Shown here: one piece after another, positions 8,934-53,940 of the stretch
Numbering within the stretch: the stretch's first letter is position 1
How the letters are laid out: each line of letters opens with the position of its first letter
Assembly: GCA_003645255.1 (NCBI GenBank)
Contig: QNES01000007.1
Span: 1-56,081, forward strand
DNA: 56,081 bases
From: Gammaproteobacteria bacterium
Lineage (GTDB): Bacteria > Pseudomonadota > Gammaproteobacteria > Beggiatoales > Beggiatoaceae
Direction of reading: 5' to 3'
Made by a program: the position numbers and the translations under genes
Notes under the pieces: generated by a model
What the model was told of the DNA's origin: nothing
The model's input: only the letters and a program-made list of their open reading frames with translations
Databases searched by the model: none

Positions 8934-10967
8934 TCACGGTTGAGTTTGAATAGAGGTTATTTCAGCACTCTCTAGCAAAGGTAATGTTGAACTGGAAGTA
9001 TCTGCTCCACCTTTTAATGGACGCATAGCATAGCCAAATCCCATAACATTTCCAGCGATTTCACAACCAACAGCAGCGATAACGCGCATTTGTAAGAAAA
9101 CGGCACCCGTACTAATTAGAGCAGCTACACTGCCCAACATAGCTAGGATTCTTGTCGTATCGACTGATAAATTTTCAGCCACTTCAAATAAAGTGGGCAA
9201 ATGAGATATGTTGCCATCCATTAATACAATTTGTGCGAAATCTTTTTTAACCGCACTTGCATCAGAAAAAGAAATTGACACATTTGCTTGCTTTATTGCA
9301 ATGCTATCATTAACACCATCACCAACAAAACAAACAGTCTTCCCTTGTTTTTGCAGATTTTCTACTATAGTCGCTTTATCCTGCGGGAGGACATCATGAA
9401 AATAACTATCTATTTCCAATTCTCGCGCTAACTTTTGAGTCGATTGTTTATGATCACCGGAAACGATACCAATATGTTTAATTTTGTGTTGCCGCAGATT
9501 ATCTAGCATCACTTTTATTTCTGGTCTCAATTGCGGTTTTATTTCAATAGCACCTTTGATATGTTTATTGACAGCGACAGCCACTAAAAAATGTCCTTGT
9601 CTATGCCAATCGGCTTGGGTTTGTTTAATAATCTCAGGGAGACTAATACCTTCCATATCCATAAATCGCAGACTACCGACTTGGATAATGTCGTTTTCCT
9701 TATGAACCGTAATACCGTAACCCATTTGATAATGGACGTTTTCTACTGGAATAGTTGTTAAGTCATTATCTTCTGCATGTTTAAGGATGGCGCGGGCAAT
9801 TGGATGGGTGAGTTTATGTTCTGCTGCTGCTGCATAGTTTAAAACCTGTGTTTCACTTAGCTCATCACAAATGATCATTTCTCCTACTATAGGCTGTTCT
9901 ATAACTAAAGCACTAGTCTTATCAAATAAAACCGTATCGACTTTACGCAATTCTTCAAGTGCTCGTCCATCTTTTACTAAAACCCCTTGCTTTGAGAGAA
10001 AAATTAAATAATTAAAGGTTTGCAAAGAAGCAAAGGTTTTCATAGCATTGCCGGGACTGCTATACAATAGGGCAGTTGCTGGTAAAACGCCAATAAATGG
10101 CAACAATACAACAGAAGCACCTATTAATGGTACGGCTAGGTTGTCAGCCCATTTTTCGCTACGTGACTGGAGAGAGGTTTTATACTCCGCCGTATCCTTT
10201 AAAATATCACATACTTGAGCCGCTGTTGTATCAATGCTGGTGTGTTCAATTTTTACTAAAATTCTACCATTGACAACCAATGTTGCAGCAAGCACATGAT
10301 CACCAACGGTTTTCTCTGCTAATACAAACTCACCCGTGAGTGCGTGTTGATCAATCATTGCGGAACCGCCAACAATTTTACCATCAACCGGGACGATATT
10401 GCCAGTATTGACAACAATAATATCATTCACCTGAACGATTTCTATGGCGGTTTCGACTTCGCTACCATCCTGAGTCAATAACCAAACTTTGTTAGGCTGT
10501 TGTTGGCAAACATCGTTAATTATTGCATTGGAGCGGTTTTGCGTTTTTATAACCATTTTATCGCCAAGGTGATATAATCCGGTAACTAATGCCGCTGTAA
10601 AAATTTGCCCGGTTCCTATACAAACCACACTGACAATGGAATTGAGCAAATCATTTTTAACCTTTTTTTCAACCAATAGGGATTTTTCTGCTTCCCTTAT
10701 AATAGGAACGGCACTGTAACTAATTAAACCTAAAGCAATTAATTTAATGGGATAAAAAATATAGCCGATCAGTATTGTTGCAATTCCGACTATATTTACC
10801 TTCAAATAATGATCAACCTGTTTTTCATCTTGACTCACTTCAACAGGGTTGATTAAAGCATTTTTCTTGACATCTTTAACCGGCTCAGTTTTTTTAGCGC
10901 GTTTTTTTTCAATAACTCTTTTTACGATATAAACGGCAGCTAACGTTTCAAAACCTAATAGTATCAT
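8934..10967 (-). CDS. P-type ATPase of the metal-pump type, degenerate phosphorylation loop (paralog 1)
   Basis: A 677-residue membrane protein with the layout of its three paralogs in this window: charged N-terminus without a metal-binding domain, an early hydrophobic pair, actuator domain with LTGE near residue 210, then phosphorylation and nucleotide domains, THPIA and GDGVND. The phosphorylated Asp is D349, but the almost invariant DKTGTLT reads DKTSALV, and TGES reads TGEF. The membrane motif before the P-domain reads YSSPGN where classical P1B pumps have CPC. It may be impaired or a regulatory pseudo-pump. It follows paralog 2 with a hairpin in the 88-bp gap and is probably the second gene of that transcript. 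Substrate unknown. Confidence 0.85.
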   Translation of the reverse strand: MILLGFETLAAVYIVKRVIEKKRAKKTEPVKDVKKNALINPVEVSQDEKQVDHYLKVNIVGIATILIGYIFYPIKLIALGLISYSAVPIIREAEKSLLVEKKVKNDLLNSIVSVVCIGTGQIFTAALVTGLYHLGDKMVIKTQNRSNAIINDVCQQQPNKVWLLTQDGSEVETAIEIVQVNDIIVVNTGNIVPVDGKIVGGSAMIDQHALTGEFVLAEKTVGDHVLAATLVVNGRILVKIEHTSIDTTAAQVCDILKDTAEYKTSLQSRSEKWADNLAVPLIGASVVLLPFIGVLPATALLYSSPGNAMKTFASLQTFNYLIFLSKQGVLVKDGRALEELRKVDTVLFDKTSALVIEQPIVGEMIICDELSETQVLNYAAAAEHKLTHPIARAILKHAEDNDLTTIPVENVHYQMGYGITVHKENDIIQVGSLRFMDMEGISLPEIIKQTQADWHRQGHFLVAVAVNKHIKGAIEIKPQLRPEIKVMLDNLRQHKIKHIGIVSGDHKQSTQKLARELEIDSYFHDVLPQDKATIVENLQKQGKTVCFVGDGVNDSIAIKQANVSISFSDASAVKKDFAQIVLMDGNISHLPTLFEVAENLSVDTTRILAMLGSVAALISTGAVFLQMRVIAAVGCEIAGNVMGFGYAMRPLKGGADTSSSTLPLLESAEITSIQTQP

Positions 10968-11055: not shown

Positions 11056-13089
11056 TTAAAAGAGCATATCCTTTAACGATTTTTTCTTTTGTTCAAGTTG
11101 TTTTAAAGGATGCATAGCATGAGCTGTTCCAAAACTAAAAGCTATTGTAAAAAACAATATTGATTTGCTAATTCCTAACCCTAAGAAAGCATTGCCCGCA
11201 ATATTAATTGTTCCATATCCAGCCCAAAACAATAAATTGTGGCGCAAATTAACATTCAATTCACCTGAAATAGCAAAAATATCTTCAAGATGAGATAAGC
11301 TACCATCCATTAACACTACCTGAGCCATATCAGTCGCAATGGATGATGCGCCCCGTAAAGAAATGGAAACATCTGCCTTCTTCATCGCAATCACATCATT
11401 TATACCATCTCCAACAAAACAGACCTTACGCCCTTCTTTCTGAAGCTGTTCAACAAGGTTCGCTTTATCTTGCGGAAGGACTTGAGAGTAATAGCTGTCC
11501 AAACCAAGTTCTTGTGCCAACTTTTTGGTAGGCTGTTCATAATCACCGGATACAACTGCAATATGTTGAATACCACGTTGGCGTAAACGCTTGATAACTT
11601 GTTTCACTTCAGGACGTATTTGTGGACGTATTTCAATTGCGCCTTGGACTTGATGATTGACCGCAACCATAATCAAGGAATAACCTTCCGCCTGTGAACG
11701 CGCCATAGCGACTTCTATTGCAGTTGGTAAAGTCATTCCTTCTGAGATGATAAAACGAGCACTACCAATCTTGATGACTTGATGATTAAGGGTCACAGTC
11801 AGACCGTAACCTATTTTATAGTTAGCATCCTCTATTTCAGGTAGACGCAACTGTCGTTCCGCAGCCTTTTGCAAAATGGCGTGAGCAATAGGATGTGTGA
11901 GCCTATGTTCGGCAGCGGCGGCATAAGTTAATACCGCATCTTCTCCTAATTCGCCACAAAGAATAATTTGCCCAATTTCTGGCTGACCATGGGTTAATGT
12001 TCCCGTTTTATCAAAGAGCACGGTATCTATTTGTGTCAATCTTTCAAGAGCCCGTCCATCTTTGACTAAAATCCCCTTGCTTGCAATCAAACTGAGATGG
12101 TTAAACGTATGCAGTGAACCTTGCGCTTTAATTGTATTAGTAGGGGCACTGAAGAGAATAGCCGTTGCTGATGACATACCGATAAACGGTGCTGATAATA
12201 CACTTGCTGCAAATAAAGGAGTTGCCACTTTATCTGCCAGTTCTTCTCCTCTCAATTGCAAACTCGTTTTAAAGTCTGCCGTATGATTCAATATTTCCCC
12301 AAGTTTAGCGACAGTGGTTTCAACCCCGGTTTTTTCAACTTTAATATGTAATTTGCCACTGACTATAATTGTAGCGGCGAATACTTGTTCACCAATACCT
12401 TTTTCTGCCGGTATAGCTTCTCCAGTTAAAGCATGTTGATCAATTGTTGCCATACCGTTAACGATAATGCCATCAATTGGAACTATCTCACCCGTTTTCA
12501 CAACAACAACATCATTGATATTAAGAGCTTCCAATGGGACTTCGATTTCTATATGCTCCTGTAATATCCATACTTTATTGGGTTGCTGAACAAAAACATC
12601 TGTGAGCATTTTAGTGGACATATCTTTGCTTTTATACACCATTTTATGAGCTAGGTGATAAATCAAAGCTTGAACAGCGCATGTTGGATAATAAACCATA
12701 GCAAAAGTCAAAATATTGACGGTAGCCGTTAGAAAGTCATTATTAATGCGTTTATTCAATAACGCATTTTCGGCTCGCTTGAAAATGGGAAAACATACAT
12801 AAAAAAGTGTCGTGACACTTAAAATAGTTAAAAGAGGAAATAAAATAAAATAATTGGTCACCGTTAAACCTAAGGCTACAACACTCACTTTATAATAGTG
12901 CTTACATTCTTTTTCAATATTGTTGTTGCTCGTATTTTCAAGATCAGATTGGATTAGTTGATTATTGTCGTTATCTTTAACGACATCTTTCACTGGCGAA
13001 TGTGGCGTTTTTTTAATTGAGGATTTGTAACGTTCAAATAGCCTAAATCCAACATAAGCACCAAGTATTATTCCAATATTAGCTAACAT
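11056..13089 (-). CDS. P-type ATPase of the metal-pump type (paralog 2)
   Basis: I place the start at ATG 13089 (MLANIGIILGAYVG), preceded by CAGGAAC at good spacing, rather than at an earlier in-frame Met. This gives 677 residues, equal to paralog 1. Catalytic motifs are intact: LTGEAIPAEK, DKTGTLTHGQP with D360 phosphorylated, THPIAHAIL, and GDGINDVIAMKKADVSIS. The metal-site region reads FSAPTN rather than CPC, and there is no N-terminal heavy-metal domain. The Thr-His-Pro motif is typical of P1B pumps. Probably expressed together with paralog 1 downstream. Transport of a transition metal is inferred from the family; the ion cannot be read from the sequence. Confidence 0.88.
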   Translation of the reverse strand: MLANIGIILGAYVGFRLFERYKSSIKKTPHSPVKDVVKDNDNNQLIQSDLENTSNNNIEKECKHYYKVSVVALGLTVTNYFILFPLLTILSVTTLFYVCFPIFKRAENALLNKRINNDFLTATVNILTFAMVYYPTCAVQALIYHLAHKMVYKSKDMSTKMLTDVFVQQPNKVWILQEHIEIEVPLEALNINDVVVVKTGEIVPIDGIIVNGMATIDQHALTGEAIPAEKGIGEQVFAATIIVSGKLHIKVEKTGVETTVAKLGEILNHTADFKTSLQLRGEELADKVATPLFAASVLSAPFIGMSSATAILFSAPTNTIKAQGSLHTFNHLSLIASKGILVKDGRALERLTQIDTVLFDKTGTLTHGQPEIGQIILCGELGEDAVLTYAAAAEHRLTHPIAHAILQKAAERQLRLPEIEDANYKIGYGLTVTLNHQVIKIGSARFIISEGMTLPTAIEVAMARSQAEGYSLIMVAVNHQVQGAIEIRPQIRPEVKQVIKRLRQRGIQHIAVVSGDYEQPTKKLAQELGLDSYYSQVLPQDKANLVEQLQKEGRKVCFVGDGINDVIAMKKADVSISLRGASSIATDMAQVVLMDGSLSHLEDIFAISGELNVNLRHNLLFWAGYGTINIAGNAFLGLGISKSILFFTIAFSFGTAHAMHPLKQLEQKKKSLKDMLF

Positions 13090-13191
13090 GTATAAGTTCC
13101 TGTTATTGTTATGGAGTTCAAGTTTTTGCCTGGTAAAAATACAAACTTTTGTACGCCTACTAAAAGTGTTCAAAAAAATAATTTCTGGCTC

Positions 13192-42410: not shown

Positions 42411-42494
42411 GATTTCTCCCTAAATAACATAAGTAGTTGAAATATAACACAAAAATTCACTTTTTTTCATTGGTAACGACAATTGGAGGTATTT

Positions 42495-43034
42495 ATGACA
42501 ACTGAAACCACCCCTACTGGCACTGAATCAAGTCACATAGACAAAACCACAACCCTTTCCTTGGAAGGGAAACTTCAAGAACGGGTTAATAGAGCTGAAG
42601 AAGCCCATAAGACGGTCAAAAAATACGTCTTGGGTACTATGGCACTAGCGGTAGTGCCATTGCCACTGGTGGATTTGGCAGCAGTAACGGCTGTCCAAGT
42701 CAAAATGGTACATAGTATTGCTAATCAGTATGAAGTACCATTTTCTGAAAATGTGGTGAAATCACTGATAGCTGCTCTAACCGGTGGTGCGTTAACGTTC
42801 ACAACGGCTACACCAATTGCCAGTTTGGTTAAAGTGGTACCGCTCATTGGACAAGTCGCAGGCTTTATTGGTTGTGCTGTAATGTTCGGTGCAACCTCTT
42901 ATGCCATTGGTAGGGTATTTATTGAGCATTTTGAATCAGGTGGTACTTTCCTTGATTTTGATCATGAAAAAATGAAAGTGCATTTTCAAGAGCTTTTTGA
43001 AGAAGGACAAAAGTTAGCAACGGCTAGCAAATAA
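42495..43034 (+). CDS. DUF697-like membrane protein
   Basis: A 179-residue protein starting MTTETTPTGTESSHID, with GGAGG before the ATG. After a polar N-terminus, residues about 45-145 carry the DUF697 pattern VVPLPLVDLAAVTAVQVKMV and two or three Gly/Ala-rich hydrophobic segments. The end is an amphipathic tail (FQELFEEGQKLATASK). DUF697 occurs in YcjF-type proteins and in small proteins encoded near metal P-type ATPases. Here the third P-ATPase starts 1.2 kb downstream in the same direction. Function unknown; a structural or membrane-organising role is possible. Confidence 0.72.
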   Translation: MTTETTPTGTESSHIDKTTTLSLEGKLQERVNRAEEAHKTVKKYVLGTMALAVVPLPLVDLAAVTAVQVKMVHSIANQYEVPFSENVVKSLIAALTGGALTFTTATPIASLVKVVPLIGQVAGFIGCAVMFGATSYAIGRVFIEHFESGGTFLDFDHEKMKVHFQELFEEGQKLATASK

Positions 43035-44196: not shown

Positions 44197-46245
44197 ATGA
44201 TTCTCGAAATGTTGGTTTTAAGTGGAATTTTTTATACAGGATATTCAAGCCTTAAAAATATGCCATCTGCGAGAAATCTCCAGGTAGCCATTGCAAATAG
44301 TAAATCAACACCACTTATTGGGGAAAGGGCTCAACTCCAAAAAGTCCAAAAACCGAATTTTAGGCTAGAAACTGATAAAGAAGCCAAGCATAATATGATA
44401 GCGGCTTTGTTAGGACTGGTACTTGCTACAACGGGTGCCATTTTTTATTGGCCATTAAGTTTCTTCAGTATTCCTTTTTTTGTTTATTCTAGTAGGCTGG
44501 TTTATAAAAATACTTATGAGATGACTAAACAAGGTAAAGTCAATGTTAATAGCTTGGTAACTATTACCATTGCCGGTTGTGTCATCCTTGGGCGTTTTTT
44601 TATTGCCAGCTTAATCGTTTTTTTAATTAAACTGGCTACCAAGCTCACCACAATGGTCGTTCAAGATTCCAGACAAAAACTGCTTGATGCCTTTGGACAA
44701 CACGCAAATTTTGTTTGGATTCTGGTTGAGGGTACTGAAATAAGGGTACCCTTTCACGATTTACAGATTGATGATGTGGTGGTGGTACATGCAGGTGAAA
44801 TTATTCCTGCTGATGGTACTATTGTCGAAGGTATGGCAAGTATCGATCAACATATTTTAACGGGGGAGGCAAGGCCCATAGAAAAAAGTTTAGGAGAAGA
44901 GGTATTTGCAGCAACGGTTATTTTATCAGGAAAGATTAACATTAAAGTGGAAAAAGCCGGTGAAGAAAGCACCGTAGCCAAAATCACTAATATTCTAAAC
45001 AACACTGTTGATTTCAAATCATCAGTTCAGTTTCGTGCAGAAACGTTGTCTGAAGCGTTGGTTGTTCCAGTACTGCTTGCTGGTGGAGTGGCATTACCTA
45101 TGTTAGGTTTTGCAGGGGCGTTAGCGGTCGTTAATGCCCACCCCAAAAACAAATCAATGATCATTGCCCCCCTTACCATCCTGAACTATCTAAACTTGGC
45201 ATCCAAGCAAGGTATTCTTGTCAAAGATGGGCGTTCATTGGAACTGCTTCGTCAAGTAGATACTATCGTTTTCGACAAAACGGGTACTTTGACCGAAGAG
45301 CAACCTCACATAGGCACTATTCATAGTTCTTCTAGTTATGAGCAAAACGAGATTCTGGTTTATGCGGCGACGGCTGAATATAAGCAGAAGCATCCTCTTG
45401 CTAAGGCTATCTTGCAAGAGGCTGAAAACCGTCAGTTGAGTCTGTTATCAATAGAAGATAGTGAATATAAATTAGGTTATGGGATAGCCGTTTATGTAGA
45501 TGGGAAAACCATTTATGTAGGCAGTGAACGTTTTATGGATGTGGAAGGCATTACTATTCCTTCTAGTATAACACAACAGCAAGCTTTTTGCCATGAGCAA
45601 GGATATACTTTAGTCATCGTTGCGATTGACAGTGAAGTCATCGGAGCGATTGAGTTGTTGCCTACTGTACGTCCAGAAGCAAAAGCGGTTATTGATAGTT
45701 TGAAACAACGCCCAAATATCAAAGCAACCTACATTATTTCTGGCGATCACGAAATACCGACTAGAAAATTAGCCCAAGAGTTAGGTATCGATCACTACTT
45801 TGCCGAAACGTTGCCTGAAAATAAGGCTAATATTATTGAAGAATTGCAACAACAAGGTCATTTTATTTGTTATATCGGTGATGGTATAAATGATTCGATT
45901 GCGCTAAAAAAATCCGAAGTATCCATTTCGCTACGTGGTGCCTCTACTATTGCCACCGACACGGCAAATATTGTCTTAATGAATCAAGGTTTAAGCCATC
46001 TTAATTCACTATTTGACATTTCCATGCAGTATAATGCCAATATGAATAGAACGTTTGCCATGATGATTATACCTGGTATTATCGGTATAGGTGGTGCTTT
46101 TCTGTTAGGTTTTACTATTGTCCAAACGCTTATTTTAAACATAATTGGTTTAGTTCTTGCGGTAGGCAATGCCATGACACCTTTGTTAACCGCACCATCT
46201 TCTAGCAAACCGACAGAAGAGCAGATAAATTTGATAGAGCATTGA
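44197..46245 (+). CDS. P-type ATPase of the metal-pump type (paralog 3)
   Basis: A 682-residue pump. N-terminal hydrophobic segment, then a polar linker without a heavy-metal domain, a two-helix hairpin, the actuator with LTGEARPIEKS, and the P-domain DKTGTLTEEQP with D360. KHPLAKAIL is the His-Pro motif of P1B pumps, and GDGINDSIALKKSEVSIS is intact. The membrane motif reads NAHPKNK where CPC is normal. TTTAGGAATAATTT before ATG provides a moderate ribosome binding site. The 12-bp repeat ACTCTATGCACA occurs on both sides of the gene (43841 and 46252). Substrate not determined; metal transport is inferred from the family. Confidence 0.88.
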   Translation: MILEMLVLSGIFYTGYSSLKNMPSARNLQVAIANSKSTPLIGERAQLQKVQKPNFRLETDKEAKHNMIAALLGLVLATTGAIFYWPLSFFSIPFFVYSSRLVYKNTYEMTKQGKVNVNSLVTITIAGCVILGRFFIASLIVFLIKLATKLTTMVVQDSRQKLLDAFGQHANFVWILVEGTEIRVPFHDLQIDDVVVVHAGEIIPADGTIVEGMASIDQHILTGEARPIEKSLGEEVFAATVILSGKINIKVEKAGEESTVAKITNILNNTVDFKSSVQFRAETLSEALVVPVLLAGGVALPMLGFAGALAVVNAHPKNKSMIIAPLTILNYLNLASKQGILVKDGRSLELLRQVDTIVFDKTGTLTEEQPHIGTIHSSSSYEQNEILVYAATAEYKQKHPLAKAILQEAENRQLSLLSIEDSEYKLGYGIAVYVDGKTIYVGSERFMDVEGITIPSSITQQQAFCHEQGYTLVIVAIDSEVIGAIELLPTVRPEAKAVIDSLKQRPNIKATYIISGDHEIPTRKLAQELGIDHYFAETLPENKANIIEELQQQGHFICYIGDGINDSIALKKSEVSISLRGASTIATDTANIVLMNQGLSHLNSLFDISMQYNANMNRTFAMMIIPGIIGIGGAFLLGFTIVQTLILNIIGLVLAVGNAMTPLLTAPSSSKPTEEQINLIEH

Positions 46246-46607: not shown

Positions 46608-46671
46608 GTCCTGGACAAAACTTTTCTGGATAGCTATGTAACCGCGTTCAGTAAGAATAATTGGGGTTAAG

Positions 46672-46749
46672 AATAATTGGGATCAGAGTAAAATTCATAA
46701 GAAACAATAATGCTTGTCAAAAATTAATATTACTCTGACCCCAATTATT
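46672..46749. repeat. 78-bp REP-like inverted repeat
   Basis: AATAATTGGGATCAGAGTAA (46672-46691) and TTACTCTGACCCCAATTATT (46730-46749) pair with one mismatch. An extra AATAATTGGGG precedes at about 46657. It abuts the truncated P-ATPase fragment. It resembles REP sequences linked with IS200-like transposases, but no transposase is here. Confidence 0.6.
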
Positions 46750-46968
46750 GCGCATAATAGGAACCATTGCATTTACAATATTAATACCTAACGTGCTGTA
46801 ATATAAAAATACTGCTCCGCTAATTCCCATACCAAAGATTAAAACACCGGTTATACAAGTAATGCCAGATGCTGTGTTTAACATTGTACCTGAGTTTATG
46901 CGGTTATTTAAATCATTAGCTATTTGCAACAAATAAGGCAGATAAGCTAAATCTGGTTTTATTAACAT
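46750..46968 (-). pseudogene. duplicated 3' end of P-ATPase paralog 4
   Basis: The 75 codons from MLIKPDLAYLPYLLQIAND to GINIVNAMVPIMR repeat the C-terminal end of the pump at 49551-51569 (IKPDLSYLPYLLQMAND ... NAMVPILR). By eye the DNA agrees at roughly nine bases in ten, starting about 46753 versus 49573. The fragment lies beyond the methyltransferase/PLP genes, so the three-gene cassette is bracketed by two copies of the pump's end. At its left end it is fused to the 78-bp inverted repeat. Confidence 0.85.
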
Positions 46969-47057
46969 AAGAAAATTTCATATAAATATTGAATGTTTTC
47001 AATAAGTTAAATTTATAAATATCCAAAAAAATATTTTACTTTAACCCAATTTATTAG

Positions 47058-47726
47058 TTACATCATATACATAAAAACTTCATGCTCTATTGTTCTGCCG
47101 TTCATTAATTTTCTGTGAGGATACCGGTTTTTATAACATAATTTAAAATTATCATCCATCCACTGTAATATCTTCAATCTTTTTTGATCTGTTGGGTTAT
47201 TTGTCAAATTAAAAACAATATAAGTATTTGCAGATAATAATTTGACGTAATTTTGATAGTCATTAAGAGCAAGATGATTTGCGGCAGCACTCATAATCAT
47301 GCCGTTAAATTCATATCTTTTCAGTTCGGCAATATTATCCCTTCCTAAGACATAAGTTTTATCATAAGTGTTTGGGTTATCGCGATTTAGTGCTATAATT
47401 GCTTCCTGCAAAATTTCAATGCCTACTAATAATTCAACTTTGGTTGAACTATTATCCTTTATATACTTACCCATAAGACCGCTTCCGCAGGCTATATCCA
47501 ATATCCGCCATCGGTTTATATCCGTTATTTCCGATAATGGCCTCCAAAGTTCAGAATAGACATCGCACTCCAGCAATCCGCAAATTAATTGCTGGTATAA
47601 ATTTGGGTACTTATACAACGAAGCATAATCCCAAATATTCAGAGTCTCTGTTCTTCCATCATCATGTTCGAGATCAAAAAATTCTTCGCCTTGGCGAGAA
47701 CCGTAATATTTTGTTATTTTATACAT
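47058..47726 (-). CDS. class I SAM-dependent methyltransferase (cassette gene 3)
   Basis: A 222-residue protein. Motif I is ILDIACGSGLMG (D77-G83) with acidic loop VGIEIL. A N-terminal domain of 70 residues (LNIWDYASLYKYPNLYQQLI) precedes the Rossmann fold. The later segment MSAAANHLALNDYQNYV replaces the usual motif IV. The substrate is not evident, though the layout resembles small-molecule methyltransferases. Its start overlaps the end of the PLP enzyme gene by 8 bases, so they are coupled. It is the last gene of the run that begins with the P-ATPase. Confidence 0.8.
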   Translation of the reverse strand: MYKITKYYGSRQGEEFFDLEHDDGRTETLNIWDYASLYKYPNLYQQLICGLLECDVYSELWRPLSEITDINRWRILDIACGSGLMGKYIKDNSSTKVELLVGIEILQEAIIALNRDNPNTYDKTYVLGRDNIAELKRYEFNGMIMSAAANHLALNDYQNYVKLLSANTYIVFNLTNNPTDQKRLKILQWMDDNFKLCYKNRYPHRKLMNGRTIEHEVFMYMM

Positions 47727-48699
47727 AACTAGTTTTAATTTTATTCTGGGTTAGAAACCGAGGATCATAGATTTTAGATAGGTATTTAATTCCGTTATCG
47801 GCAAGTACCGTAACTACTACGTCCTCCCTTTTTAAACGATTGGCAACGATAGTTGCGGCAAAAACATTGATACCGCTGCTGCCACCTACGAATAAACCTT
47901 CCTTTTCGGCTAATTTATGACAAGTAGAAATCGCTTCTTGATCGGAAACTTGTAATACTTCATCAATTACTGAAAAATCTAAACACTGTGTCGGCTTTTG
48001 TTTCCCGGCTCCTTCGATGAGATAAGATTGGGTTGTGGCTACAGGTTGATATTGAGGATTGTTTTTTAAGTAGCCATTGTAGTAATAGCTGTGAATATTT
48101 GAATAAAGTGGATCCGCCAAAGTAACCTGAATGGCCTGTTTTTTTTCTTTTAAGAATTTAGCGGTACCTGAAATACATCCAAAAGTGGAACCCGTCATGA
48201 CAAAATGGGTAATTTTTCCATTTGTTTCCTTCCAAATTTCCGGCCCTAATGTCTTATAATAGGTTTCCGGATTATAAGGATTATCATATTGATTGACATC
48301 AAAATAATCATTGTCTTGAGCCAGTTTTTTTCCATATTCAACATAATCGCGTTCATCTACGACAATTAATGTCGCATTAAATGACTTGATATGATTTTGT
48401 TTCTCCATGCTACATTTATCAGAAACGACGATAATGACTGAATAGCCTTTGATGGCACCAAGCATTGCAATGCTACAACCGGTATTGCCACTGGAAGAAC
48501 AGACAATAGTATCATCGGGTTTCAACTGATTTGTAGCTTCCGCCATTTCCAAAATATATTTTGCAATCCGGTCCTTCATACTAAAACTGGGATTCAGAAA
48601 TTCACATTTAGCGTAAAGTTGTGCTGCCCTTGTTAAAGAGGTTAAATCAACTAACGGAGTTTTTCCGATTAAGTCGATAAATTTCGATGCGTTTGCCAT
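47719..48699 (-). CDS. fold-type II PLP enzyme, cysteine synthase-like (cassette gene 2)
   Basis: A 326-residue enzyme of the cysteine synthase/cystathionine beta-synthase group. K42 in NPSFSMKDRIA binds PLP, SSGNTG (69-74) grips the substrate, and GGSSG near 275 lies in the C-terminal domain. It has no CBS domain. The sequence departs from housekeeping CysK/CysM (NPSFSMKDR instead of NPxxSVKDR, GSTFGCISGTAKFLKEK instead of GTGGTxxG), which suggests a specialised role such as amino-acid building block synthesis. Flanked by methyltransferase genes. Low-efficiency alternatives: 2,3-diaminopropionate-type or cystathionine beta-synthase-type chemistry. Confidence 0.82.
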   Translation of the reverse strand: MANASKFIDLIGKTPLVDLTSLTRAAQLYAKCEFLNPSFSMKDRIAKYILEMAEATNQLKPDDTIVCSSSGNTGCSIAMLGAIKGYSVIIVVSDKCSMEKQNHIKSFNATLIVVDERDYVEYGKKLAQDNDYFDVNQYDNPYNPETYYKTLGPEIWKETNGKITHFVMTGSTFGCISGTAKFLKEKKQAIQVTLADPLYSNIHSYYYNGYLKNNPQYQPVATTQSYLIEGAGKQKPTQCLDFSVIDEVLQVSDQEAISTCHKLAEKEGLFVGGSSGINVFAATIVANRLKREDVVVTVLADNGIKYLSKIYDPRFLTQNKIKTSYV

Positions 48700-48788
48700 T
48701 TTTATCTCCTAAAAAATGAGTCCAATCTCCATGGCAACTTGCTGGAAATTAGACAATATTCACGGAAGGCAGGTTATATCCAATCTTG

Positions 48789-49517
48789 TCAGCATTTTTG
48801 TTCAAACTGTAGAACATATATTTTTTTATAATAACTGCCATCAATCAATTCAATCTCTCTTTCGTGAAGTTCTATTGCTGACATTTTAGCAACATGTGGA
48901 TAAAACAATTTTCTTAGAAGCACAGTTTTTTTATGTTTTTTTATGACAGCCAAATTGTATTTTTGTTGAACCTCTTCCAAGAGTGAATCTATTTTCAACA
49001 AAGAAGAAACGCCCAAATATATTGTAATATTATCAAGTTGTTGTCCTGATACCCATATAAAAAAGTTATCTATCAACTTTCGTCCATTTTTACCACCATC
49101 CCGGAAAATTCTTTCACTTTCTTCTTGAAAAGAATTAATATCAACTAAATCAGTCGGTAGTTGCGGTGGGTTGAAAGTAATCGCATCAACTTGATTTGCC
49201 AAGAGATCAAGTTGCTCGAACGAGCCTTCGATAAGGCGGTATCTTTCTTTTTCAATAAGATATCGATTGAGATTTCTCTGGGCGAGTTCCACGGCATCAT
49301 GCTGAATATCATTGAAATAAACAAAAGGGATTCGATTTAACAGTGCATAAATACCGATAATACCGCTGCCGCAACCTACATCAAGTAAACGTCTATACTT
49401 ATTGACTTCAAAGCTCTCGCACATTATCTCGCTAAATGGCGTTTTATCCGCGATACCCGGTTTACTATCAAGATGAATTTTTTGAAATGGATATTGTATG
49501 TTCGTTTTCATGGACAA
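48789..49517 (-). CDS. HemK/RsmC-like SAM methyltransferase (cassette gene 1)
   Basis: A 242-residue protein with DVGCGSG (46-52), an acidic D70 after strand 2 and the catalytic NPPQ at 116-119. NPPY/NPPQ motifs mark amino-group methylation of bases or glutamine. Its N-terminal substrate domain is short compared with HemK, and the C-terminal ~100 residues are unusual. The gene starts 33 bp after the P-ATPase stop in the same direction, so it is likely in the same transcript. The target is unknown. Confidence 0.8.
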   Translation of the reverse strand: MSMKTNIQYPFQKIHLDSKPGIADKTPFSEIMCESFEVNKYRRLLDVGCGSGIIGIYALLNRIPFVYFNDIQHDAVELAQRNLNRYLIEKERYRLIEGSFEQLDLLANQVDAITFNPPQLPTDLVDINSFQEESERIFRDGGKNGRKLIDNFFIWVSGQQLDNITIYLGVSSLLKIDSLLEEVQQKYNLAVIKKHKKTVLLRKLFYPHVAKMSAIELHEREIELIDGSYYKKIYVLQFEQKC

Positions 49518-49550
49518 TGCTTTCAGTTGGTTTAACTGTATTTGAATTGA

Positions 49551-51569
49551 CTATTTTAACGTTTTTTCACGCAGAATAGGAACCATTGCATTTACAATAT
49601 TAATACCTAACGTGCTGTAGTATAAAAATACTGCTCCGCTAATTCCCATACCAAAGATTAAAATACCGGTCACACAAGTAATGCTAGATGCCGTGTTTAT
49701 CATTGTACCTGAATTTATTCGGTTATTCAAATCATTAGCCATTTGCAATAAATAAGGTAGATACGATAAATCTGGTTTTATTAAGACAATTTCTGCCGTA
49801 TCGGTAGCGATAGTTGCCGCGCCGTGTAATGAAATGGCGACATCGGCTTTTTGTAAGGCAACCGCATCATTAATCCCGTCACCAATAAAACAGACTTTTC
49901 GCCCTTGTTTTTGTAGGTTTTCAACAATCAATGCTTTATCTTCCGGTAGAGTTTCAGCGTAGTAATTTTCTATACCAAGCGTTTCCGCAAGCTGTTGAGT
50001 CGGTTTTTCTTGATCACCGGAAATAATATAAAGTGTCATACCTTGTTGGCGTAATGTGGTAGCGACTTTCTTAGCATTTTTTCGGAGCGAGGGACGTAGT
50101 TCAATAACGCCCATCAGGTATTGATTTTCCAAAGCAATATAGATTAGGGAATGGCCCTTTTCAGCACATTCAATTTGCACAGACTTTATATCATTAGGGA
50201 TATTAATCTTGGCACTTTCCATAAAACGCTCACTGCCCAGCAAAATCGTTTGCACTTCTGAACCGGCTTCAGGGTCTACAAAACTCACGCGAATACCATA
50301 TCCAACTTCATAATCACTATTTTCTATGGGAAAACTGCGTAAGTTTTGTTGAGCCGCTGCTTGACAAATGGCTTGTGCAATTGGATGTTTTTGCCGTTGT
50401 TCTGCGGTGACAGCATATTGTAACAATTGTTTTTCAGTAAATCCATTGCAGGCAACGATACGTTTTACTTGGGGTATTGTTTCCGTTAAGGTGCCTGTTT
50501 TATCAAAGATAATGGTATCTACTTCAGCTAATTTTTCTAAAGCGCGTCCATCTTTTACCAAGATACCATGATTTGAGGCAATTCGCAGATAATTCAGTAC
50601 GGAAAGCGGTGCTACAAGTCGCATCTGATAACCAAAACCGGAACAGGATAATGCTAGGGCCTGACTAATTCCTAATAATGGTAAGGCAGTTGCCATAGCA
50701 AGCAGGGATATACCTGCACCTTTTTCAACAATTTCTTCGCCACGCGATTGGATATGACTTTTAAAGTCAGCCGTTTTTTTCAAAACTTCCACAATCTGAC
50801 CGGTGACGGTTTCTTCACCTTGTTTTTCTACTTGAATATGCAACCAGCCCGAAAGTAGCATTGTTGATGCGAATACTTTATTTTCTTGGCTTTTCTCAAC
50901 CGGTTGGCTCTCACCGGTTAACATACATTGGTCAATCGTTCCCTCACCAATAATAATTTTGCCATCTGCGGCAATCATTTCTCCGGCGCGTACAACCATA
51001 ATATCATTGGTTTGTAAAGTATTTAACAGCACCTCAATTTCAAGATGTTCCCGCAATATCCAGACTTTCTTAGGCAAACTGCCAAAGATATTATTTATAT
51101 CCGTATGGGTACTGCGCTCCGTTTTTATAATAAGTTTACGGGCGGTAAAAAACATAGTAAAAAGAACCGCAGCGGCTAAATATTTTCCAAGTACCAGCAC
51201 ACCAGTAACACATAACCATTCAAATATTCCCACCATGCGTTGTTTTTGTTTAAAAATAACATGATGAGATTTTTTAAGATAATGAAAGTAATTGTAAGTC
51301 AATAAAGGAATGCCAAGTAACGTAAGAGGGGAATAAAAAATCGCACCGACACCGGTTAACCCTAAAGCGACTAGTGAAACACGTTGATAATGAGTTGCTT
51401 CAGCCTCGCTTTTTAAGATATCAGTTTTGGTTGGAGTAGCCGTTTTTACCAGTGAATTTTTTTCAGGCAATGTTGAAATTATATTTTTTGGTCGGCGCGA
51501 TAGTTGCTTATCTTTCCATACGGCAAACAATATACCGCCAATTGCTAAAGAAATCGTGATTAAGGGCAT
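49551..51569 (-). CDS. P-type ATPase of the metal-pump type (paralog 4), head of a four-gene run
   Basis: A 672-residue pump with the same layout as paralogs 1-3: N-terminal helix, linker, helix pair, actuator with LTGESQPVEKS, DKTGTLTETIP with D356, KHPIAQAIC, and GDGINDAVALQKADVAIS. The metal-site motif is SCSGFGY, with neither Pro nor a Cys pair. No N-terminal metal-binding domain. All ATPase motifs are intact, so it should be active. It is followed in the same direction by a methyltransferase, a cysteine-synthase-like enzyme and a second methyltransferase. Its 3' end is repeated at 46750-46968. Confidence 0.88.
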   Translation of the reverse strand: MPLITISLAIGGILFAVWKDKQLSRRPKNIISTLPEKNSLVKTATPTKTDILKSEAEATHYQRVSLVALGLTGVGAIFYSPLTLLGIPLLTYNYFHYLKKSHHVIFKQKQRMVGIFEWLCVTGVLVLGKYLAAAVLFTMFFTARKLIIKTERSTHTDINNIFGSLPKKVWILREHLEIEVLLNTLQTNDIMVVRAGEMIAADGKIIIGEGTIDQCMLTGESQPVEKSQENKVFASTMLLSGWLHIQVEKQGEETVTGQIVEVLKKTADFKSHIQSRGEEIVEKGAGISLLAMATALPLLGISQALALSCSGFGYQMRLVAPLSVLNYLRIASNHGILVKDGRALEKLAEVDTIIFDKTGTLTETIPQVKRIVACNGFTEKQLLQYAVTAEQRQKHPIAQAICQAAAQQNLRSFPIENSDYEVGYGIRVSFVDPEAGSEVQTILLGSERFMESAKINIPNDIKSVQIECAEKGHSLIYIALENQYLMGVIELRPSLRKNAKKVATTLRQQGMTLYIISGDQEKPTQQLAETLGIENYYAETLPEDKALIVENLQKQGRKVCFIGDGINDAVALQKADVAISLHGAATIATDTAEIVLIKPDLSYLPYLLQMANDLNNRINSGTMINTASSITCVTGILIFGMGISGAVFLYYSTLGINIVNAMVPILREKTLK

Positions 51570-51714: not shown

Positions 51715-53877
51715 TTAATTTTCAGGTAGATTAGTATGAACCGGCAAACGCATAATAAAAGTACATCCCTGTCCCAATTCACTTTCAACGACAATATCCC
51801 CCCCCATAATTTGACAAAACTGTTTAGTAATGGCTAATCCTAAACCACTACTACTATATAGGTGTGTATGGGTTGTATCAGCCGGTATGAAAGCTTGAAA
51901 TAATTTTTGAATTTGCTCCTTTGTCATGCCAATACCTTGATCAGTGATGCGGAATAAAATCCAGTCCATAAGATTAACCGATTCTCGGGTGACGGTTATT
52001 GAAATCGTACTTTGTTTAGAGAATTTGGTCGCATTACTCAATAAAGTGAATAAATTGCGCCGTAATTTCGTTAAATCTGTGGACATCGTACCCAACGCTG
52101 AATCGCAATTTACTTTCAAAATATTGGATTGTTTTTCCAATAATGGTGCAATGGTACTTGCAACATCCTGAATCATGGGGGCTATATCAAAGGTATCTAT
52201 ATATAAATCCATTTTACTTGATTCCATTTTAGACAAATCTAATAGATTATTAATTAAATCCAACAAATGGTAGCTTGCCCCATGAATTTTTTGTAAATCA
52301 GGCAGAAAATCTTCCTGTTTTTGCTCTTTCGCATCTTCTTGCAACATTTCCGTATAACCAATAATAGCATTCATTGGGGTGCGGAGATCATGACTCATGT
52401 TTGCCAAAAAGTGTGATTTTACCTGGTTGGCTGTATCACTTTGCACTTTAGCACGTTTAGCTTCTAATTTATATTTTTGAATTTCTACTCGTGCTTTTTG
52501 GATTTGTAGGCGTGCTTTTTGTATTTTTTCATGAGCATTTTGCATTTTACGCCGGTTTTTGACTAATTGACTATGGTATCGTTTAATTTGCTCTTTTTGT
52601 TTAGCCTGAATTAAACGTGACGCTTCCAAGTGCATAAGATATTCATAACTTTCGCTACTGGTTTTAAGTATATCGCTGGCTAATTGTCTGAAAACTTTAG
52701 CTAACAGGCGTATTTCAGTGACACTTTTTCGACTAACCAATACTTTGCTGGGAGATTGGCTAAGCCCTTGAATGGTATTGAGTAAATTTGATATAGGCAA
52801 AATCAGAGTTTTGAAGAATACCCCTACCATAATCATTAAGCTTATGAAAATAATAGTGCCACTGATGATAAAGATGCCATAAAAGTTACCCTGTTTCAAT
52901 TCGCTTGTTTGTTGATAACTCACTAAAGTCCATGGCAAAGTCCCTAATTTTTTAGAAGATAGACTATATAGGTTCCCATTTCCATTTTTCACTTCTATAT
53001 AAGAAATATTTTGGTTAAGAACCTTTTTCCAAAACGGCTGTTTTAAATAAAAATATTGACGTTCTGTCGCATTGATAAAAGAAAGTTGCCTACTGCCTAT
53101 TTTCCCGATTTTGCTTAATAACAAACCTTTTTTGGAATCTACTAGCAACATTCCCCCAGTTTCCCCCAATTTTTGGTTTTCAACTTCTTCAAAAAATGGA
53201 TCAGCCAGTATGCTGATACCAACGACACCGGTAAAGGTTTGCATAAGCTTAAATCCTTGGCTAATACTAAACACAGGCACATTGTTGGTATAATCCTGAT
53301 CAAAATAAATGGGAGTAATTTGCATATCAACTGGAGCCTTGCCCTTGGTTTTAAAATGATACTTGCTCATGTAATACCAAGCATTTCTAGGATTATTGGC
53401 ATAACTGGGTTCATTAAATGATTTCTGTAGCATATATTGCGGATTGTTATATTTTTTGGTATTATGCAAAGCTATATTTTTGTAAACTAATAACAATTTG
53501 CCCCGATGATTAAAGAGTCGTTGCGCATGGTATGGTTCTATGGCAATATAATGACTATAATGATTTTTTTCAAACTGTAGATTGTCAGCCATCAAGTTTT
53601 GAAGAAACGCTATTTTATCATTCATGTTCTCAGATTTTGAATCCAAAATAGATACATACTTTTTAAGACGATAAACATTTTGCTTACCTAATTCAATTTC
53701 TTTATCTAATTGCTGTGCTAACGCAGTGACAGATTGTTCAAATTTAAAATAAGCAAATTGATTTTGTAATTGGCTATGTTTATTAATAAATAGTATGATA
53801 GAACATAAGACAATCAACGCGATAACCACCACAAAAAATAATAAAATATTCTTTATATTCAATAAATTATAATTCAT
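51715..53877 (-). CDS. membrane sensor histidine kinase, Cache type
   Basis: A 720-residue kinase. I use ATG 53877 (MNYNLLNIKNILLFFVVVIA) with AAGGA upstream; earlier Mets extend a basic segment. Helix 1 spans about residues 10-31. A large periplasmic part follows, Cache-like and ending near residue 330, then a second helix near 335-360, a HAMP-like segment (LILPISNLLNTIQG) and a long Lys-rich coiled coil (about 420-480). The HisKA motif is FLANMSHDLRTPMNAIIGYT with phospho-acceptor H496. The ATPase domain carries LLSNATKFS, DQGIGMTKEQ and SSGLGLAITKQFC. No receiver domain; the partner response regulator is not in the window. Confidence 0.92.
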   Translation of the reverse strand: MNYNLLNIKNILLFFVVVIALIVLCSIILFINKHSQLQNQFAYFKFEQSVTALAQQLDKEIELGKQNVYRLKKYVSILDSKSENMNDKIAFLQNLMADNLQFEKNHYSHYIAIEPYHAQRLFNHRGKLLLVYKNIALHNTKKYNNPQYMLQKSFNEPSYANNPRNAWYYMSKYHFKTKGKAPVDMQITPIYFDQDYTNNVPVFSISQGFKLMQTFTGVVGISILADPFFEEVENQKLGETGGMLLVDSKKGLLLSKIGKIGSRQLSFINATERQYFYLKQPFWKKVLNQNISYIEVKNGNGNLYSLSSKKLGTLPWTLVSYQQTSELKQGNFYGIFIISGTIIFISLMIMVGVFFKTLILPISNLLNTIQGLSQSPSKVLVSRKSVTEIRLLAKVFRQLASDILKTSSESYEYLMHLEASRLIQAKQKEQIKRYHSQLVKNRRKMQNAHEKIQKARLQIQKARVEIQKYKLEAKRAKVQSDTANQVKSHFLANMSHDLRTPMNAIIGYTEMLQEDAKEQKQEDFLPDLQKIHGASYHLLDLINNLLDLSKMESSKMDLYIDTFDIAPMIQDVASTIAPLLEKQSNILKVNCDSALGTMSTDLTKLRRNLFTLLSNATKFSKQSTISITVTRESVNLMDWILFRITDQGIGMTKEQIQKLFQAFIPADTTHTHLYSSSGLGLAITKQFCQIMGGDIVVESELGQGCTFIMRLPVHTNLPEN

Positions 53878-53940
53878 AACCATTCCTTTTTTGGCATGAT
53901 TTAAAAATGATGAAACAGACTTTTTTTGGTTGATTGGCAT

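Follow-up and report, generated by a model that had tools for sequence, protein, structure and literature searches.

A P-type ATPase without the usual metal motif and an adjoining enzyme cassette in a genome of the Beggiatoaceae

Genes of the locus

The sequence analysed here, referred to as the window, is a stretch of 56,081 nucleotides (contig QNES01000007.1, assembly GCA_003645255.1) from a gammaproteobacterium of the family Beggiatoaceae, whose genome is available as 4.41 Mb in 313 contigs. On its minus strand lies the gene of a P-type ATPase (pump2, 49551-51569), followed by those of a class I S-adenosylmethionine (SAM) methyltransferase (MT1, 48789-49517), a pyridoxal phosphate (PLP) enzyme similar to cysteine synthases (47719-48699) and a methyltransferase-like protein (MT2, 47058-47726). 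The genes are spaced by 33 bp and 89 bp, the last two overlap by 8 bp, and a 220 nt copy of the pump2 3' end (46751-46970) comes after them. This arrangement had been described in an earlier note, made from the sequence alone, and is confirmed by the coordinates.

The pump family

The 672 aa pump2 protein shows the DKTGT, TGE (here TGES) and GDGxND (GDGIND) motifs and the PF00122 and PF00702 domains of the P-type ATPase superfamily, and exceeds the cut-off of the heavy-metal subfamily TIGR01525 (382.9 versus 346.25 bits). ATPases of the P1B class carry a metal motif, CPC (or SPC/TPC), in the fourth transmembrane segment (TM4); an N-terminal HMA domain is frequent, not universal, among them. 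In the phmmer alignment of pump2 to CopA (3j08), which spans residues 129-622 of pump2, the CPC position is occupied by FGY, so that the metal motif is missing. No HMA domain match was reported, at E 0.001, for pump2 or for pump1, another pump of the window sharing 42% identity with it. Sixty-nine pumps were selected for their similarity to pump1 or pump2, and CPC was found in none of them. When 7 pumps kept for being without CPC are added, the resulting 76 sequences show 30 different tripeptides at this position, FGY occurring 19 times. The link to metals, drawn by the earlier note for pumps of this group, is weakened by the replacement of CPC by FGY, by the lack of a reported HMA domain and by the absence of CPC from the 69 similar pumps.

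A search of 57 genomes with pump2 gave matches with E <=1e-60 in at least 35 genomes, and at least 16 in the richest one; matches close to this limit may be metal pumps. In a FastTree phylogeny, 83 family pumps, likewise kept for being without CPC, are set apart from 5 CPC pumps, and pump2 pairs with the pump of genome G019, inside a group of 7. The G019 pump, from another genus, is the nearest pump among the matches listed, with 89% amino acid identity and a DNA identity of about 91% (mean over 100-column windows). The aspartyl-tRNA synthetase gene (AspRS), the sole gene compared, is 79% identical to that of G019 and 83% identical to those of two genomes of the window's own genus; these two contain no pump more than 45% identical to pump2 at the amino acid level, among the matches listed. 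By these comparisons, pump2 was probably transferred between lineages.

Among 398 genomes sampled from the phylum, with 2 candidates scored per genome, the family was found at E <=1e-160 in 6, including the window's own. The other five belong to three other families of the phylum. In 2 of them the pump gene overlaps that of a nonribosomal peptide synthetase (NRPS) type protein, with AMP-binding, methyltransferase, PP-binding and reductase regions; in 2 it adjoins a carbamoyltransferase gene (the second one recognized by sequence inspection) and in 1 a gene for a LOG-type protein.

Enzymes of the cassette

MT1 is MTS/PrmC-like by profile and contains an NPPQ motif, which we take to be of the N-methyltransferase type. 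The 222 aa MT2 matched no Pfam or NCBIfam profile at E 0.001; a DIACGSG stretch, noted by inspection, suggests that it is methyltransferase-like.

The PLP enzyme belongs to the PALP family (PF00291, 239.5 bits, cut-off 35), whose fold-type II enzymes have a catalytic lysine in common. Its scores remain below the equivalog cut-offs of PRK10717 (284.9/387 bits), CapA (254.8/600), CBS (253.1/510) and SbnA (209.3/350). The structure-based comparison suggested by the earlier note was carried out with a model of mean predicted local distance difference test score (pLDDT) 82.5: Foldseek placed CysK of Staphylococcus first (TM-score about 0.8) and CapA1 of Capnocytophaga at rank 2, with 38% identity. 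By sequence, the nearest solved structures are 9k2p (CapA1, E 2e-62), then CBS and CysK. The enzyme shares the fold and the catalytic lysine of CapA1, CysK, CBS and SbnA, but differs from them in its scores and in having STFGC in place of GTGGT, at what is presumably the glycine loop of fold-type II enzymes. As it falls below all these cut-offs and is nearest to CysK and CapA1, it is best described as a putative beta-replacement enzyme. We infer that the cassette may yield an alanine that is methylated and beta-substituted, or a derivative of it.

A scan of named genomes for the PLP enzyme returned 6 relatives; one was inspected (L071), and its context, by sequence inspection, is that of ordinary sulfur amino-acid metabolism. 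MT2 relatives occur in 5 of the 56 other genomes; the flanking stretches retrieved contain neither a PLP enzyme nor a pump.

Operonic partners of the pumps

The genes adjoining the pumps were compared with those adjoining 32 copper-type ATPases, selected for having CPC (32/32 by construction). Pump loci were taken down the list ranked by similarity to pump2, among the matches listed, and are not a random sample; the 76 pumps consist of the 69 chosen by similarity and of the 7 CPC-less P-type ATPases, found in further pump loci. Two loci, L113 and L114, had been taken for a PLP hit near the pump, and both are among the 76. L115, L130 and L131 were left out of the pump counts, while L139 and L205 yielded no pump under the filters used. 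For pumps and controls alike, a gene on the same strand at a gap of 120 bp or less was considered an operonic partner.

Such a partner is present for 53 of the 76 pumps and 13 of the 32 controls (one-sided Fisher p 0.0046, this and the following values ignoring relatedness). The gap is 30 bp or less for 38/76 pumps versus 7/32 controls (p 0.0055), and 14/76 pump genes overlap a neighbour, versus 0/32 controls (p 0.0049). Considering only the 69 pumps chosen by similarity, the figures are 47, 34 and 13; without L113 and L114 they are 52, 37 and 14 out of 74. Further removal of near-identical loci and of the window leaves 46, 34 and 14 out of 65 (p 0.0043, 0.0036 and 0.0022).

The same tendency is seen in gene direction, where neighbouring pumps were also counted. 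The nearest upstream gene is co-directional for 64/72 pumps versus 13/30 controls, and the nearest downstream gene for 52/72 versus 16/31; a downstream gene both co-directional and within 30 bp is found for 24/72 pumps and 1/31 controls.

Types of partners and their conservation

Partner proteins were assigned to families by profile, and several names rest on sequence inspection. The partner set holds 84 of 86 genes (two, open at an edge, were dropped, and 6 of 92 adjacent genes had been lost to a length filter) and includes the three enzymes of the window. Two sets served for comparison: 84 of 86 other operonic genes sampled from the same loci, and 20 of 22 partners of the control ATPases, two edge-open genes having been dropped. 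From the former, a pump fragment and the phosphoenolpyruvate (PEP) mutase of locus L121 were excluded; because this mutase comes from pump surroundings, its removal tilts the comparison by one row in favour of an association. The first 25 families listed were considered for each set.

Among the families listed, the partners include Methyltransf_25 (9), thiamine pyrophosphate (TPP) enzyme domains (4), Cys_Met_Meta_PP, Pyridoxal_deC, TauD and MR_MLE (3 each), PALP (2, one being the window's own) and Aminotran_3 (2). For the other operonic genes, Methyltransf_25 is found 3 times, and none of the PLP families of the partners reaches 2; for the partners of the control ATPases, the families listed are thymidylate synthase, UreF, RnfD and similar ones. 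The connection between pump and small-molecule enzymes put forward in the earlier note holds as a pattern of the whole family, relative to control ATPases.

Some loci are more specific. At L121 a PEP mutase, a phosphonopyruvate decarboxylase and a 2-aminoethylphosphonate (AEP) transaminase lie near the pump, and EgtD does so at L127, all above their profile cut-offs, with intergenic distances reaching about 150 bp. A KamA-type radical SAM protein and a NodU-like carbamoyltransferase are found near the pump of L132, both below cut-off.

Fifteen clusters of similar partners, at gaps of 300 bp or less, span at least 2 genera. Ten of them hold a cross-genus pair of pumps at least 63% identical, the median of all pairs being 43%. 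These close pairs occur with TauD and enolase-superfamily proteins (63%), a thioester reductase and TPP enzyme (68%), PP-loop proteins (73%), radical SAM proteins (81%), a PLP decarboxylase (82%), a TPP enzyme (94%) and two clusters of methyltransferases (100%). At L147 (G013) and L152 (G001), the pump and two methyltransferase-like proteins are 100% identical across two genera, as would result from a very recent transfer or a binning error.

The copy of the pump 3' end and other pump remnants

The two pump ends were aligned as the earlier note had advised. Positions 46751-46970 match 49570-49789 over 220 nt, on the same strand, with 92% identity. The reading frame of the copy is open (46717-46968) and continues into a repeat element at 46660-46760, where the remnant ends. 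Searched against the whole genome, the copy found itself, pump2 (E 7e-87, far beyond chance) and a 36-bp stretch on contig C10 (47679-47714).

In an alignment of 210 bases, pump2 and the copy share 195 and differ at 15, pump2 and the G019 pump share 190 and differ at 20, and the copy and the G019 pump share 186; pump2 is therefore the closest relative of the copy among the sequences compared. At three residues the copy has Ala, Leu and Met, as in G019, where pump2 has Ser, Ile and Leu; it has other residues in common with pump2. The earlier note had offered two origins for the copy. That of a former second pump reduced to its end fits better, whereas insertion of a cassette regenerating the pump 3' end fits less well, given that 15 of 210 positions already separate the copy from pump2; a fresh duplication is held unlikely for the same reason. 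Most likely, judging from these alignments, the copy is the tail of another, related pump2-type gene, terminating at the repeat element, although an older insertion could still be its source. The interval from MT2 to the copy was searched for the front part of a second pump, by comparing 46960-47070 with pump2 and the region around it; none was found, the best match having E 1.4. An integrase-type island was also considered and rejected: no integrase family is matched by MT1, the PLP enzyme or MT2, the last of which has no profile match at all, and the near-identity expected of att-like copies is not seen.

The repeat resembles miniature inverted-repeat transposable elements (MITE) or repetitive extragenic palindromes (REP), and has 86 matches in the genome, counting half-elements and both strands. 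It is about 100 bp long, with inverted ends (GGGGTCAGAGTAA...), and was also seen at L070, 2700-2813 and 5843-5956.

At C10, the last codons of a pump gene (...NAMVPIMREKR), with a stop overlapping a GTG start, directly precede an enzyme operon. Behind the pump tail come SbnA, SbnB, a PP-loop-like protein that matches no Pfam family, and a pair of methyltransferases; one of the pair, MTb, has 25% identity to MT1. The adjacent SbnA (TIGR03945, 446.9 bits, cut-off 350) and SbnB (TIGR03944, 431 bits, cut-off 327) both exceed their equivalog cut-offs and correspond to the pair for 2,3-diaminopropionate synthesis. With a third one on contig G018:C85, pump remnants are known from three places. In the G018 remnant (L115, 1700-2600), the middle of the gene is gone and TM4 stands closely before its last codons. 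At L231 (666-3100, G019:C97), a relative of MT2 adjoins a PP-loop-like protein that has 44% identity to its C10 counterpart, an arrangement connecting gene types of both cassettes.

Discussion

The explanation tentatively favoured, to which we assign a probability of roughly 0.45, is that pump2 belongs to a large family of P1B-derived ATPases that would have given up the usual metal site, and that it forms, in one operon with its enzyme cassette, a dedicated pump for a small molecule. The cytoplasmic cassette would make a small amino-acid-derived molecule: on an activated serine, the PLP enzyme would exchange the beta substituent, giving a product to be modified by one of the methyltransferases or by both. 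This product, or a close derivative, would be taken by pump2 from the cytoplasmic side and moved outward over the inner membrane at the expense of ATP, with phosphorylation at DKTGT during transport. The 220 nt copy would be the leftover of another, related pump gene that lay at this position, its remaining part ending at the repeat element. Gene order, the loss of the motif, the pairing with enzymes across the family and the divergence of the copy are observed directly; co-transcription of the four genes, the chemistry of the cassette and, above all, transport of the product are deduced.

Three other explanations were weighed. The pump could still handle a metal, bound by residues other than CPC or by a ligand, metallophore or buffer, that the cassette makes. 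This would agree with the score of pump2 for the heavy-metal subfamily, and with the position of SbnA and SbnB, which belong to a siderophore pathway, after the pump tail of C10. It stays in play in view of a heavy-metal P-type ATPase recorded for a cyanobacterial metallophore cluster, that of lusichelin (PMC12210259). We regard it as improbable, given that CPC is absent from all the similarity-chosen pumps, that neither pump1 nor pump2 has a reported HMA domain, and that partners such as EgtD, or TauD with enolase-superfamily enzymes, have no obvious metal theme in common. Somewhat less improbable, though still unlikely, is a mere hitch-hiking of pumps in islands of gene turnover, next to enzymes without functional link. 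The excess of DNA identity between pump2 and the G019 pump over that of AspRS, with differing neighbours, the remnants at three places and the metabolic nature of other operonic genes near pumps would all be expected in such islands, and the idea stays in play because pump and cassette can separate, as in G019 and at C10. It does not readily account for the tight co-directional spacing and the overlaps limited to pumps, nor for partner types recurring across genera, with closer pumps in 10 of 15 clusters, and for similar pairings in other families of the phylum.

An indirect role, in which the pump would move a counter-ion, lipid or polyamine required by the pathway or by its toxicity, is very unlikely: 30 tripeptides at the CPC position would not be needed for an ion or lipid common to all these pumps, even if the variety of motifs may also be read in its favour. 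Lipids are moved by P-type ATPases of other classes. Polyamines are organic molecules that are likewise moved by P-type ATPases, those of the P5B class (ATP13A2; PMC8564547). P5B enzymes are eukaryotic and of another class, and their likeness to pump2 is at the superfamily level.

Several observations weigh against a dedicated small-molecule pump. No partner within 120 bp is present for 23 of the 76 pumps, pump1 included, some of them at contig ends, and two pumps of the window adjoin housekeeping-like or patatin-like genes, as judged by sequence inspection. The MT1, PLP enzyme and MT2 set was found in the window's genome only, among the 57 genomes (56 relatives searched). The G019 pump, nearest to pump2, lacks such a cassette: about 380 bp and a hairpin-like stretch, seen by inspection, separate it from the next same-strand genes, which code for a two-domain methyltransferase and radical SAM proteins. 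Few pumps have an NRPS, adenylation or thioester-reductase protein within 5 kb (10/84 pumps, in the set used for the neighbour scan and likewise kept for being CPC-less, versus 0/32 controls). In 5 of the 15 partner clusters the pumps are no closer than usual (35-51%); these are the clusters of NRPS (49%), a Cys/Met PLP enzyme (44%), sulfotransferase-like proteins (51%), DUF697 (46%) and the PLP pair of the window and L113 (35%). Pumps with PKN or FGY have differing partners, so that motif and cassette do not map one-to-one. The structure model of pump2 (pLDDT 41.3) was not used.

Compared to heavy-metal ATPases of the P1B class, such as CopA and ZntA, pump2 has the same catalytic motifs and domain order, while its family has CPC replaced, forms a separate branch and is more commonly found in tight operons. 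Mycobacterial ctpB presumably adjoins isonitrile lipopeptide genes. The lusichelin cluster also places a P-type ATPase gene inside a small-molecule cluster, and this pump is read as part of siderophore export or import (PMC12210259). The pump2 family differs from such metallophore clusters in lacking the metal motif and in having partners that change by locus.

More generally, a bacterial P1-type lineage may have turned into exporters devoted to organic small molecules, with the metal site of TM4 lost and diversified, each pump travelling with the enzymes that make its substrate, and the pump 3' end serving as the joint where cassettes and pumps separate. This wider view is possible, if somewhat doubtful. 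To our knowledge, metals and potassium are the only substrates described for bacterial P1 ATPases, and no published description of such a pump family was found by title or abstract opening, in a search outside which most subscription journals lay. If it is true, the chemistry of P-type pumps would extend to a lineage with some 30 motifs in place of the metal motif, and the pump would be a genomic handle on numerous small biosynthetic cassettes that may escape cluster-finding programs.

Other features of the window

Scans for promoters (23 seen, 23.5 expected) and terminators (6 seen, 3.6 expected) were uninformative. The pump1 gene (44197-46245, plus strand) is convergent to the cassette, has PKN at the CPC position and is without operonic partner. 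A gene for a DUF697 membrane protein, identified by profile, lies at 42483-43034 (plus strand). Such genes are found within 5 kb of 7/84 pumps (6 genes), versus 0/32 CPC ATPases, and recur at L141, L144, L145, L223 and L225.

Two further pumps of the same family are encoded at 8934-10967 and 11056-13173. The former, on the minus strand, has DKTSA where DKTGT is expected, and may be inactive or altered; its neighbours are a chorismate mutase/prephenate dehydratase-like gene, recognized by inspection, and another pump. Upstream of pump2, at 145 bp and on the same strand, lies the gene of a sensor histidine kinase (51715-53940, HisKA and HATPase_c, dCache below cut-off), a possible regulator.

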